NCBI RefSeq assembly: GCF_020966775.1 | Contig: NZ_JAJKFV010000011.1 | Coordinates: forward strand, 186,001-250,000 | Origin: Rhodopirellula halodulae | GTDB lineage: Bacteria; Planctomycetota; Planctomycetia; Pirellulales; Pirellulaceae | Length of the DNA stretch: 64,000 bases | Reading direction: 5' to 3' | Part shown: positions 47,352 through 51,379 of the stretch, one piece after another | Numbering within the stretch: the first letter of the stretch is position 1 | How the letters are laid out: the number at the start of each line of letters is the position of its first letter | The notes under the pieces: model-generated | Seen by the model: only the letters and a program-made list of their open reading frames with translations | The model's database searches: none | Told to the model about the DNA's origin: nothing | Position numbers and translations under genes: made by a program

Positions 47352-47370
47352 TGTGACCAAACGTGTCACA
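47352..47370. promoter_or_regulatory. Inverted repeat TGTGAC-N7-GTCACA
   Basis: Perfect 6-base arms 80 bases before the clamp-motif gene; a third copy of GTCACA is at 47329-47334. The spacing is too wide for a classic CRP site. It could be a regulator site or a weak hairpin. Confidence 0.4.
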
Positions 47371-47450: not shown

Positions 47451-47816
47451 ATGACTCAGCTGTCCCTTTTCGACGCCATCGCACCGGTTTCTCCCGTGGT
47501 CGTCCCGGCTTCCGCAGTCACTGCATCGGAACCGGCGGCATCCTCCGCTTCAAAGCCATCGTCAGCCTCTTCGAATGACTCCGGCCGCACCGACGATTCG
47601 GGCACCTCGTTGCTGGCCCTCGCCGAATTGATTCGCGAAGGCCGTGAACAGCTCGCCGCTCACCGCGGCACCACTCAGCGTCCCATTCAACGCATCGGTG
47701 ATTTGGCTCAAGCCGTTTTACATCGCCACGATCTGGTGGCACGTCGCCGGGCCGCTTCGCGTCAGAAAGCCAACGACTTTGACGCTGCCACGGACAACGT
47801 TCAGGTCGCTTCCTGA
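47451..47816 (+). CDS. Small protein with N-terminal beta-clamp binding motif
   Basis: The protein has 121 aa from ATG 47451; a TTG-like upstream start (47400) reads poorly. It opens MTQLSLFDAIAP: QLSLF is the consensus pentapeptide by which bacterial polymerases and repair proteins bind the DnaN sliding clamp. A Ser/Ala/Pro-rich linker (about 15-55) follows. A helical part comes next, LLALAELIREGREQLAAHRG and RIGDLAQAVLHRHDLVARRR, rich in Arg and Leu. I recognise no family. Proximity to imuA'-imuB suggests a role in DNA repair or translesion synthesis. The end overlaps the convergent LapA-like gene by 16 bases. Confidence 0.7.
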   Translation: MTQLSLFDAIAPVSPVVVPASAVTASEPAASSASKPSSASSNDSGRTDDSGTSLLALAELIREGREQLAAHRGTTQRPIQRIGDLAQAVLHRHDLVARRRAASRQKANDFDAATDNVQVAS

Positions 47817-48169
47817 TCGATGCCGATGGACTCTTCCGCGGAACGGTTGTTCCCGAGCCCTTTTTTCTTGCTCGGGGGGGACGCTGCTTTGGCGGAAGTG
47901 TCTTCCTTCTTGGCTTTCGCGTTCGATTCCGTTTTGGCTTTGGAGTCGCGTGCTGACTGAGCCTTGTGGCGACTTCGAATTCGCCATGCGGTCATCAAAC
48001 ATCCCAGCACAAAGCTGACTCCCGAACATCCCAACAACAGCAATGTCAGTGGGTATTCGCCACTGAAAAAGAGGATGGTCAGCGGCACCGCATCTTGGTT
48101 TTGGAAGGCCACGATGACGACGACCAAAACGGCGATCAACGACAACGACCAGCGAATTTTCTGAAGCAT
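47801..48169 (-). CDS. LapA/DUF1049-like membrane protein
   Basis: The protein has 122 aa from ATG 48169; TTG 48199 would add ten residues. Two membrane helices (IRWSLSLIAVLVVVIVAF and LTLLLLGCSGVSFVLGCLM) flank the short loop NQDAVPLTILFFSGEYP, the defining layout of the LapA (lipopolysaccharide assembly A) domain. A lysine-rich cytoplasmic tail (about 75-115) follows. In E. coli LapA works with LapB in lipopolysaccharide control; no lapB is visible here. It is divergent from imuA' over 98 bases and overlaps the clamp-motif gene at its 3' end. Confidence 0.8.
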   Translation of the reverse strand: MLQKIRWSLSLIAVLVVVIVAFQNQDAVPLTILFFSGEYPLTLLLLGCSGVSFVLGCLMTAWRIRSRHKAQSARDSKAKTESNAKAKKEDTSAKAASPPSKKKGLGNNRSAEESIGIDQEAT

Positions 48170-48211
48170 CGGGAAATCAGCGAGAGGGAAATCTGACAAA
48201 AAAGGGATTTG

Positions 48212-48229
48212 CTAGCAAATGTTTGCTAG
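48212..48229. promoter_or_regulatory. Perfect 18-base palindrome before imuA', LexA-like operator candidate
   Basis: CTAGCAAA-TG-TTTGCTAG is a perfect palindrome 38 bases before the imuA' ATG. The octamer TTTGCTAG is also present twice as a direct repeat 14 bases apart (48208 and 48222). A possible -10 (TAGGAT, 48227-48232) overlaps its right edge, so a bound repressor would block transcription. imu genes in other bacteria are usually LexA-controlled; the planctomycete LexA site is not known to me, so the identity of the regulator is inference. Confidence 0.6.
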
Positions 48230-48267: not shown

Positions 48268-49638
48268 ATGCCAAACAGCATTTCCACCCCCAACGATCAC
48301 GCTTCGAAACGTCAGGCCGCCAATTCGGGTGTCTTGGGCGCCCATGCTTTGGATCGAACTCCTCAGCAGCAAACCTTCGCGTTTTGGGAGGAACCTGCCA
48401 TTGCCCGCCCGATGGTCGCTCCCCCAATCGGTTCTTCCACTGTAACCGCAAAACCCAAACGTCGTCACAAAGAGACACGCTTTGCCGTCCCGCAGACGGT
48501 TCCCGAAGAAGCCATTTCGTCCACCCCCGCAGCAGAGGTCACGGCGGAGAAAGTCGCTGCGGAAAAAGTCACTACGGAAGACGAACCCGCATCGCTGACC
48601 CGCGAAGCACTGCTGCAAAAGCTTCGTCGGCAAACCCAAGCCATCTCGGACCCGCTGGCCTCCTCCGAATCGATCGATTGCTTTTCGACCGGATCCAACG
48701 TGTTGGATTCTTGGTTGCCCGACGGCGGCATGCGCCGCGGCACGATCAATGAATGGATCTCCGAAACCGAAGCCGGTGGGGCGGGCACGTTGTCGCTGAT
48801 CGCGGCCGCGAAACTGATGGGAGCCCATCACAACTCATTGCCACATCGCTCACCGCCTCATCGCTCGTCAACCTTCACGCACCGTGGGCCCACCACGCAC
48901 AACGGCCCCTTGATCGTGGTGGATCCGGGCGGGCACTTCTACGCTCCCGCCGCAATTGCTTGCGGCATTCCCGCTGAACGAATCGTTTGGTGTCGAGTGA
49001 CCAATCGCCGCGACGCGGTGTGGACCCTCGACCAATCTTTGCGATGTGGTTCCGTGGCCGCGGTGTGGTCCATGTTGCCATGGAACCTGGACGATCGAGA
49101 CGCGAGACGATTGCAACTCGCGGCGGAAACCGGACAAACACCTGGACTGTTCGTTCGCACGGCTTCCGCGGGAAAGCGGCCTTCGTTTGCTTCCGTTCGT
49201 TGGCACGTCCGTTCGGTGCCCGCGGCGCCCGAGCAAATTGTTCCGCTCGCTCATCCGCGTTCCGCTTTGCCGCCGATCAATCTCAAACGTTCCCGCGACC
49301 TTCGGGTCACTCATGTCAGTCTGCCTCATGCCAAAGGCAACGTGACTCGCCAAGCCTTTTTGGCTCTGACTCCTGACGCGGCCATTCACAATTTGGATTC
49401 ACGTCCATTCCTTGCCGCATCGTCCACCACAGTTTCCTCTCAACCCACCACTTCCACACTCGTGGGGACCTCCGACTCCGCAGACACATCCACGGCAAAC
49501 ACTCATGAAAAGGCTGCTGTGCATCTGGCTGCCCAATTGGCCCATCCAACGTCGACTCGCCGAGACAACAGCCAAACCCAACGAAACGCAAACTCCCGAA
49601 GCAACGAACGACGCGACCGTCGCCGTCGCGCGGGATAG
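48268..49638 (+). CDS. imuA: ImuA-like RecA-related protein of mutagenesis cassette
   Basis: The protein has 456 aa from ATG 48268. The first 130 residues are low-complexity and include QQTFAFW, a weak match to a clamp-binding hexapeptide. The conserved part starts FSTGSNVLDSWLPDGGMRRGTINEWIS (about residues 142-168), a RecA/ImuA opening; a proper Walker A is not seen (ETEAGGAGTLSL). GPLIVVDPGGHFYAPAAIACGIPAERI and WTLDQSLRCGSVAAVWSMLPW complete the domain. ImuA proteins assist the error-prone polymerase with ImuB after DNA damage. The last 134 bases overlap imuB in another frame, giving a Arg/Asn-rich tail that is probably unstructured. Family membership is supported by the adjacent imuB. 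Confidence 0.8.
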   Translation: MPNSISTPNDHASKRQAANSGVLGAHALDRTPQQQTFAFWEEPAIARPMVAPPIGSSTVTAKPKRRHKETRFAVPQTVPEEAISSTPAAEVTAEKVAAEKVTTEDEPASLTREALLQKLRRQTQAISDPLASSESIDCFSTGSNVLDSWLPDGGMRRGTINEWISETEAGGAGTLSLIAAAKLMGAHHNSLPHRSPPHRSSTFTHRGPTTHNGPLIVVDPGGHFYAPAAIACGIPAERIVWCRVTNRRDAVWTLDQSLRCGSVAAVWSMLPWNLDDRDARRLQLAAETGQTPGLFVRTASAGKRPSFASVRWHVRSVPAAPEQIVPLAHPRSALPPINLKRSRDLRVTHVSLPHAKGNVTRQAFLALTPDAAIHNLDSRPFLAASSTTVSSQPTTSTLVGTSDSADTSTANTHEKAAVHLAAQLAHPTSTRRDNSQTQRNANSRSNERRDRRRRAG

Positions 49639-51379
49639 CCCGCCTCTGATCCTGTGGCACCAAGACCCACGTCGCGGACGCATCGTTGCCGCCAGTTGTG
49701 CCAAGGCGGCGCGCCTCGGAGTGCGTTTGGGGATGCCGATCGCACAAGCCGTCGATCTGACCAGCTCACAAGCCACGTCGCCTGGTCAACCAAAACACCA
49801 TGTTACAAAGCCGACCAGCAACCACGCGTCAGACACAACCAACGCACGTGCTGCCACTGCCGAACACGCTACGATCGACGAACACAACCGAGTGGCCGAC
49901 CGACGGGCGTTGCATTCGCTCGCCACCGAACTGCAACATCACCTCTGCCCACAAATCGCGACCGAAACGTTGGACCGTTTCAAATGGTCAGGTCGTTTTC
50001 GCCATGATCCCGAAGCCTTGGTTGCGGAGATTCAAAGCGTCACGCATCTGTTCGGCAACGAAACCGATCTTTTGGCCGCCGCGGCCAGCATCCTTCAACG
50101 ACGTGGACTGCGGGCACGACTGGCCATTGCCAGCACACTAGGAGCCGCGTGGGCACTGGCCAATCATGCCCCTTCGCATTCTCGCAAACCGGACGTGTCC
50201 GATCAAAACGCCCCTTCGTTCGACTTCTTCGTGGCACCACCGGAACGCACCCACGAAGCATTGCAAACGCTGCCGCCCTCGGCGTTGCGTTTGAATCCCA
50301 CCGACGTGGAAACACTGCATCGATTGGGAATCGATACCGTTGGTTCACTGCTGCGATTACCACGCAACGGATTGGCGACCCGCATCGGTCATGGACTGTG
50401 CCAACGAATCGCTCAAGCACTGGGGGAGATCGACGAACCCATCTTGGCAATCGACTTGCCGACCGAGCACGCGGCTGAACTGGAACTGGAATATCCCACC
50501 GACGCGGTCGACCTCCTTCGAGATCGCATCATTCGGCTGATTGATTCCGCCACGCAAAACCTGCGTCCACTCAACCGCGGCGTTTTGCGTTTGCGATGCC
50601 AAGTCGAGTTCACGGAATCACCGCCGGTGACTTTGGAATCGGGATTGTTCTCGCCCACGTTGGATCTGAATCACCTCAGCAACTTGATGATCGGAGCTTT
50701 TGAATCTCACCACATTGCATCCAAAGTTTCGCATCTTCGAATCGGTGTCTTGCAAGACGCTCCGTTGGCGAGCACGCAACCTTCCATCTTCGGTCCCGGT
50801 TTCGAAAACGATGCCCAAACCGATTGGACGCGGCAAACCGACGTCGCGAGATTGATCGATTCGTTGAGCGGGCGTCTGGGCGAGGACGCTGTGCGTGGTG
50901 TTCGCATCAACCGTGACCCGCTGCCTGAAAATGCGGTGACGGAATTCCCGCTGACACAATCCCGCGGTCGCAAACTGGCAACCGCTCGGCCCAAACGAAA
51001 CCGTTCCAAACCACGTTCGGGAAATCAGCCACCGGATTCACCTCTTCCGCGAACCGGGCATCGTGCGGGTGTGCCCACCGCAACGGATGCCGGCCGCCGC
51101 CCGCTGCAATTGCACACATCGCCCCAACGAATCACGCCCCTGAGTCACGGCAAAGAGCCGGTTCCCGAAAACCAATTCCCACCGCGATTCCGATTCCGCG
51201 GTCGCGTTTGGGACGTGCGTCAACACTGGGGCCCGGAACGGATCGAAACGCGGTGGTGGCAGGGCCCCATGATCCGCCGAGATTACTTTCGGGTGGAGCT
51301 TCAAGACGGGACGCGGTGGTGGATTTTTCGCGACTTGAACCAACCTGCGGATTGGCAACTTCACGGTTGGTTCGATTGA
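49505..51379 (+). CDS. imuB: ImuB-like inactive Y-family polymerase
   Basis: The protein has 624 aa from ATG 49505 (MKRLLCIWLPNWPIQRRL), starting 134 bases inside imuA. In active Y-family enzymes this segment holds the first catalytic Asp (D-M-D-x-F); here it is WLPNWPIQ, as in ImuB. The second catalytic pair is replaced by EIQSVTHLFG. ASTLGAAWALANH is a family motif. A helix-hairpin-helix region (ETLHRLGIDTVGSLLRLP) follows, then the little-finger region, and the C-terminus RDYFRVELQDGTRWWIFRD with LHGWF is typical of ImuB. ImuB bridges the sliding clamp, ImuA and DnaE2. No clear clamp motif is seen in it. dnaE2 is not adjacent. Confidence 0.9.
   Translation: MKRLLCIWLPNWPIQRRLAETTAKPNETQTPEATNDATVAVARDSPPLILWHQDPRRGRIVAASCAKAARLGVRLGMPIAQAVDLTSSQATSPGQPKHHVTKPTSNHASDTTNARAATAEHATIDEHNRVADRRALHSLATELQHHLCPQIATETLDRFKWSGRFRHDPEALVAEIQSVTHLFGNETDLLAAAASILQRRGLRARLAIASTLGAAWALANHAPSHSRKPDVSDQNAPSFDFFVAPPERTHEALQTLPPSALRLNPTDVETLHRLGIDTVGSLLRLPRNGLATRIGHGLCQRIAQALGEIDEPILAIDLPTEHAAELELEYPTDAVDLLRDRIIRLIDSATQNLRPLNRGVLRLRCQVEFTESPPVTLESGLFSPTLDLNHLSNLMIGAFESHHIASKVSHLRIGVLQDAPLASTQPSIFGPGFENDAQTDWTRQTDVARLIDSLSGRLGEDAVRGVRINRDPLPENAVTEFPLTQSRGRKLATARPKRNRSKPRSGNQPPDSPLPRTGHRAGVPTATDAGRRPLQLHTSPQRITPLSHGKEPVPENQFPPRFRFRGRVWDVRQHWGPERIETRWWQGPMIRRDYFRVELQDGTRWWIFRDLNQPADWQLHGWFD

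Follow-up and report, generated by a model that had tools for sequence, protein, structure and literature searches.

A small gene near imuA-imuB in Rhodopirellula halodulae encodes a predicted clamp-docking protein carried by part of the Pirellulaceae

Introduction

In our view, the field has yet to settle how error-prone polymerases take the sliding clamp over from the replicase. The locus studied here lies in a stretch of 64,000 nucleotides of Rhodopirellula halodulae, called the window in what follows, in which a small gene whose product opens with MTQLSLFD is found close to an imuA-imuB pair. A first-pass annotation, made from the letters alone, took QLSLF for a clamp-binding motif and proposed that the protein tethers the mutagenesis complex to the clamp or acts as a separate clamp regulator. 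Is the gene real, does its product dock on the clamp, and does it serve the ImuA-ImuB mutasome? If a stand-alone clamp-docking protein is indeed tied to ImuA-ImuB, it would offer a separable handle on the polymerase switch. The features on which the discussion relies are collected in Table 1.

Table 1. Position, strand and evidence of the features of the locus (positions in the window)
Feature	Positions	Strand	Evidence or remark
Box GTGACCAAACGTGTCAC, ahead of the small gene	47353..47369	+	common to recA and other genes
Small clamp-docking protein gene (predicted), 121 aa	47451..47816	+	ORF and family evidence
QLSLF, clamp-binding-type pentapeptide, residues 3-7	47457..47471	+	Q3, L6 and F7 invariant in 29/29 aligned members
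Conserved C-terminal module, residues 54-101 (LIREGR ... IGDLAQ.VL.RHDLVARRRA)	47610..47753	+	alignment, constraint
LapA-domain gene	47801..48199	-	PF06305 E 1.1e-11; convergent, 16-base overlap with the small-gene end
Palindrome TTTGCTAGCAAA ahead of imuA	48208..48219	.	LexA-type site possible
imuA	48268..49638	+	NF033429 E 3.7e-23, 82 bits, below the model cut-off of 150
Clamp-like motif QQTFAFW at the ImuA N-terminus, residues 34-40	48367..48387	+	expression match, carriers
imuB, start MKRLLC inferred	49505..51379	+	PF00817 IMS 4.6e-4, PF20114 DUF6504 0.12, both below cut-off; beside imuA
QPSIF, clamp-type motif of ImuB	50777..50791	+	alignment of carrier ImuBs

The small protein and its N-terminal motif

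The coordinates, strand and start of the 121-aa frame were all verified, and the earlier reading of QLSLF as a clamp-binding consensus agrees with the published one, which part of PMC12309361 gives as QL[S/D]LF and, more generally, as QxxLF. Among 3019 starts in the window followed by at least 60 open codons, the small gene alone presents M-x(0-2)-Q[LM]xLF after the start codon, and Q[LM][SDT]L[FW] occurs once in the six frames of the window when open stretches of at least 60 residues are considered. Judging from alignment and substitution rates, the motif is more than chance, because Q3, L6 and F7 never vary and the first ten residues have a dN of 0 in every pair compared, 8 of the 15 possible close-species pairs. 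In these same 8 of 15 pairs, the linker shows almost free evolution (dN 0.20-0.68 versus dS 0.44-0.81), and the C-terminal residues 54-104 give dN of 0.03-0.11 versus dS of 0.58-1.20.

An AlphaFold model from 7 sequences, of low confidence (mean pLDDT 63.5, pTM 0.25), places helices at residues 49-72 and 82-113 and leaves QLSLF outside helices. The layout, as predicted from sequence and model, is a docking peptide, followed by a tether and then by a short basic helical module with a conserved GDLA...RR pattern. The small protein is probably mostly disordered, and it probably docks on the clamp through its first residues.

Distribution and conservation

A phylum-wide search with the single sequence returned the own genome of the window alone (1/392) and was too insensitive, so profiles were used instead. 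The 13 genomes of the genus that were searched all carry the small protein, and the genus alignment retrieves six loci of named relatives, which are Rhodopirellula europaea, sallentina, solitaria and rubra, Neorhodopirellula pilleata and Aporhodopirellula aestuarii. The genus profile, at E 0.05, matched at least 42 of 149 family genomes, and a wider profile, at E 0.001, at least 37; 36 of the latter were accepted as carriers, each with a match that begins at profile position 1, and they are spread over 11 genera. A class-wide profile search gave matches in at least 24 of 397 genomes, with 18 accepted, all within the family of the window, the Pirellulaceae. All carrier counts are minima, as they come from scoring the best 11 candidates at most per genome in the class search and the best 30 at most in the family searches.

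Several candidates were set aside. Six weak genus-profile matches (G412, G425, G474, G482, G489, G508) were gone with the wider profile at E 0.001; six matches outside the family and a second match in G274 (L091-L097) were read and, on inspection, looked like unrelated frames or antisense ones; and two wider-profile matches confined to the C-terminus, in G499 and a second one in G396, were dropped on the strength of that pattern alone.

The first-pass annotation had named conservation of the motif in orthologues as a check, and the motif is indeed kept: all 13 genus members open with M[TN]QL[ST]LF, and the three key residues are held in 29/29 aligned sequences, where G83, L85, A86, R92 and R100 are also invariant. 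The motif was present in 23/23 members screened, several of which were found via C-terminal positions alone, and therefore it is no artefact of the search. Comparison with Pfam, NCBIfam, PHROGs, PADLOC and PDB sequences gave no notable match to the small protein, just scattered weak ones with E of 0.027 or above, so that the earlier remark about the lack of a described family holds for these five collections. The small gene is real and has no match to any described family in the libraries searched.

Neighbourhood of the small gene

The imuA gene begins about 450 bases past the small-gene frame, as first annotated, with an ImuA assignment that comes from a match below the model cut-off (Table 1). 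Other genomes repeat the arrangement of small gene (+), LapA-domain gene (-), imuA (+) and imuB (+), and even in distant genera the LapA-domain gene is kept before imuA, with its end facing that of the small gene. Among 20 distant loci, imuA was present in 15, imuB in 14 and the LapA-domain gene in 14; the other neighbours from the window were found in 2 (a 292-aa gene), 0, 0 and 0 of the same loci. No conserved direct neighbour besides the LapA-domain gene was seen beside the small gene.

Linkage to imuB in other genomes, also put forward earlier as a check, was found at 4.5 kb or less in 25 of the 36 carriers. The distance is 8-12 kb in two more (G504, G430) and 231-410 kb in four (G409, G470, G480, G498), and in another four the two genes are on different contigs: in G402 and G464 the small gene lies away from the contig end, so it is apparently unlinked, and G274 and G519 are undecidable. 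One carrier, G530, gave no ImuB match.

The small gene is tied to imuAB by position and partly by a common box, which is described below. The two are not in one operon, because the convergent LapA-domain gene stands between them, and the linkage of the LapA-domain gene is as tight as that of imuA; therefore the linkage to the small gene is not specific. Moreover, ImuB is present in 130 of the 149 family genomes (E 1e-20), versus at least 36 for the small gene, and therefore most mutasomes of the family work without it. A set of 20 imuAB loci from genomes without an accepted small gene, which includes three cut by a contig end and from genera with carriers (L158, L159, L160) that are no true negatives, contained no LapA homologue at E 1e-3. 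A looser expression applied to these 20 loci picked up an ORF in L152 (MQIAIL, 195 aa, no GDLA), which was not counted.

Clamp-type motifs in ImuB and ImuA

According to the first-pass annotation ImuB has no obvious clamp motif, which turns out to be mistaken: QPSIFGP is present near the end of the Y-family region, the usual place. The aligned position is Q in all 25 carrier ImuBs aligned, the window counted, with 11 QxxLF, 3 QxxLL and 11 QxSIF, and position 4 of the motif is weak in the genus of the window.

The ImuA of carriers has a clamp-like motif as well. A regular expression for QQTFxF[WLMF] or relatives matches the N-terminus in 25/25 carriers of a first set, and a slightly wider one does so in 9/13 uncut loci of a second set, or 12/13 when L247, L248 and L250 are added by eye (L245 is without the motif); other carrier ImuAs read QLQLW, QLELW or QPMLW. 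In the loci of non-carriers the expression gave no N-terminal motif (0/17 uncut) and one match at residue 152, and two of these ImuAs (L147, L154) have Q-less LPLLD/LPLFD stretches. This contrast between carriers and non-carriers is a lead, obtained with an expression that was written after part of the data had been seen and on N-termini that are stop-to-stop frames with uncertain true starts. The motif of the carriers, which look related, may come from common descent. With one motif in ImuB and a clamp-like one in the carrier ImuAs, the idea that the small protein supplies a clamp motif missing from ImuB is not supported.

A box common to the small gene, recA and other genes

Upstream of the small gene there is a box, GTGACC-N2-ACGTGTCAC, which was scanned for as an exact pattern, TGACC-N2-AC-N-TGTCA, and as a relaxed one, GACC-N2-A[CG]-N-TGTC. 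The box precedes the small gene in 33/33 loci with the relaxed pattern, which was picked after the upstream regions had been seen, and in 29/33 with the exact one. Small genes unlinked from imuAB keep it too (L021, L065, L066, L068, L070).

The genome of the window has 12 exact boxes versus 0 for the reversed pattern. They are followed by recA, priA, a RadD/SSL2-like helicase gene, a C5 DNA methyltransferase gene, cas3, csrA, a gene for a WYL-domain protein, two MAKFYVQ-type genes, a gene for a 263-aa protein, the small gene itself, and an XRE regulator gene followed by a putative M78 protease gene, recognized by eye. Four other genomes from four genera gave 35 exact boxes versus 0 for the reversed control. 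There, 18 of the 30 box loci examined have a homologue of a box gene from the genome of the window (tblastn, E 1e-3), with recA, the WYL gene, csrA, MAKFYVQ-type genes and the small gene each boxed in 3/4 of these genomes; the other 12 are without such a homologue and hold, by eye, one ssb-like, two AddB-like and one Cas3-HD-like gene, with eight unexplained. The box stands ahead of recA in 4/5 genomes read. Across the 149 family genomes there are 526 exact boxes versus 51 for the control, with a mean of 6.8 in carriers and 2.5 in non-carriers; the highest number, 34 (control 0), was found in G492.

We infer that the box-bearing genes form a damage regulon, because recA and its companion genes carry the box. 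The box precedes many unrelated genes, and therefore it indicates co-regulation at most for the small gene and imuAB. A literature search found no account of such a box in planctomycetes; some prior work on planctomycete LexA exists. The genes behind the box are probable damage genes and make up a list open to testing.

The imuA gene was scanned with the relaxed pattern over the 300 bases ahead of the open frame and the first 150 within it, a span for which about 0.001 matches per locus are expected by chance at equal base frequencies. No box was found in the 29 loci with an adjacent small gene (8 genera), and one was found in 8/9 loci with the small gene apart or on a different contig, with G402 as the exception. 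These eight come from three genera alone (three loci in g273, four in g294, one in g328) and therefore are not independent. A box also precedes imuA in 9/17 uncut loci without the small gene. Another carrier locus, L254, is truncated. An earlier contrast made with the exact box (0/20 imuAB loci without the small gene) was withdrawn in view of these nine. The simplest reading would be an ancestral imuAB controlled by the box, which in genomes with linked genes stands ahead of the small gene.

In the genus of the window, imuA is without the box and has another palindrome, TTTGCTAGCAAA, possibly a LexA-type site. It lies ahead of imuA in 14/39 loci and ahead of 2/7 lexA starts; in G000 there are 10 sites (control 1), of which those at imuA and an XRE gene alone are recognized as damage-related. 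A lexA gene above cut-off was found in 5/5 genomes. Of the 7 lexA loci above cut-off, 5 are without the box core, and the other two have it at a distance of 712-755 bases upstream of the gene. In L227 and L228 (G414, G506) the box core is followed by an ORF and then by a second lexA with TTTGCTAGCAAA at -119.

Possible function of the small protein

We think that the small protein is best explained as a damage-regulon, clamp-docking accessory of the ImuA-ImuB mutasome in part of the Pirellulaceae, a reading based on sequence to which we give a little less than an even chance; it is kept under that mark because the separated boxed loci come from three genera. DNA damage would turn on the small gene through the box, together with recA, and the N-terminal QLSLF would dock in the peptide cleft of the clamp. 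Thanks to the flexible linker, the GDLA/RRR helix at the C-terminus would be free to bind a partner, for which ImuA, ImuB or DnaE2 are the likeliest candidates, and the clamp motifs of the small protein, ImuA and ImuB might together bring the error-prone complex to the clamp, or keep it there, when a fork has stalled. Against the accessory role stand the four carriers with a gap of 231-410 kb to imuB and the two more that are apparently unlinked. A more specific version, rather doubtful to us, would make the protein a fourth dedicated mutasome subunit, which, like ImuA and ImuB, brings a clamp motif of its own to the two-cleft clamp, and would have the box shared with recA read perhaps by a WYL protein and not by LexA.

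The closest known system is the ImuA-ImuB-DnaE2 mutasome of mycobacteria, which resembles the present one in having imuA and imuB and a clamp-type motif on ImuB, given as QLPLWG in part of PMC10421592. The locus described here differs from it in the extra clamp-motif protein and the N-terminal clamp-like motif on ImuA, and the available portions of PMC6511836 and PMC12926913 make no mention of an extra clamp-motif subunit of the mutasome. Two other likenesses concern single proteins, one of them the Caulobacter clamp-binding toxin SocB and the other the regulator of DnaA inactivation, Hda or HdaA. SocB is small in size, and Hda has an N-terminal clamp motif and an AAA+ domain. SocB is described in part of PMC9690074 as having the usual clamp-binding motif, as the small protein does, and the same portion presents Hda as a clamp-anchored regulator, similar to the role proposed here. 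The likeness to SocB is by description, and the small gene differs in having a box in common with recA and no conserved antitoxin-like partner: no adjacent antitoxin gene was seen, the LapA-domain gene being the sole conserved direct neighbour. As for Hda, the small protein has 121 aa and no notable Pfam or NCBIfam domain match, so no AAA+ domain was seen after its motif.

The main rival to the accessory role, which we regard as rather unlikely, is a brake on the clamp, in which a damage-induced protein fills the cleft, displaces the replicative polymerase and slows the fork, and the link to imuAB reflects co-regulation. Such a competitor would need just what is seen here, a very small protein with the consensus motif free at its N-terminus; SocB blocks elongation through the usual clamp motif according to part of PMC9690074, and the five unlinked small genes have kept the box. 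Yet competition alone would not call for a conserved module at the C-terminus, and this module is constrained; apart from the LapA-domain gene, no conserved partner gene adjoins the small gene. Unlikely to a similar degree is a factor that is guided by the clamp but belongs to a different pathway of the regulon, be it restart, recombination or Hda-like control of initiation, and for which imuAB would be a mere neighbour. That priA and recA are boxed as well, together with the ssb-like and AddB-like genes recognized by eye, and that several genomes have the small gene away from imuB, would suit this factor, but the imuA-imuB neighbourhood is retained where other neighbours vanish, and no known domain was found in Pfam or NCBIfam.

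Improbable in our opinion is the explanation that the N-terminal motif is recognized not by the clamp but by another protein, to which ImuA too binds via QQTFxF. In its favour, most ImuA variants (QQTFxF, QQLFxF) fall outside QxxLF; against it, QLSLF fits the consensus printed in the cited part of PMC12309361 and QMxLF fits QxxLF, and the ImuA of other carriers reads QLQLW, QLELW or QPMLW. A chance ORF or artefact would go with the lack of a family match in the libraries used, but it is scarcely credible given that both the N-terminus and the C-terminal domain are under constraint and that accepted orthologues occur in 11 genera.

Other genes under the box

A WYL-domain protein is found under the box in four genera (L175:3052-3417 in G000, L193, L204, L212), in frames of 97-135 aa, and is a candidate sensor or regulator. 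This arrangement resembles the PafBC and DriD damage regulons, as far as these are described in the sources available, in that one promoter box serves a WYL-domain gene together with recA and further repair genes. It differs in the protein itself: the one scanned here (L175, 122 aa) matches Pfam WYL with E 6.9e-5 and has no other Pfam match.

The XRE regulator with its putative M78/ImmA-IrrE-type protease (HEIAH by eye) was found in L179 (G000) and L188 (G414). The two XRE proteins are 94% identical across two genera, with the box and GCTAGCAAA ahead, and the pair is perhaps mobile. PriA (L182:3065-5467, G000) has an N-terminal QSELF, also within the clamp consensus. The presence of cas3 (L180, G000) and of the Cas3-HD-like gene (L186, G475) under the same box suggests that CRISPR genes may respond together with recA. 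Two related small MAKFYVQ proteins are also under the box (L177:2471-2878 and L181:2586-2972, G000); they gave no match in Pfam (L177) or NCBIfam, and their homologues are boxed in three other genera.
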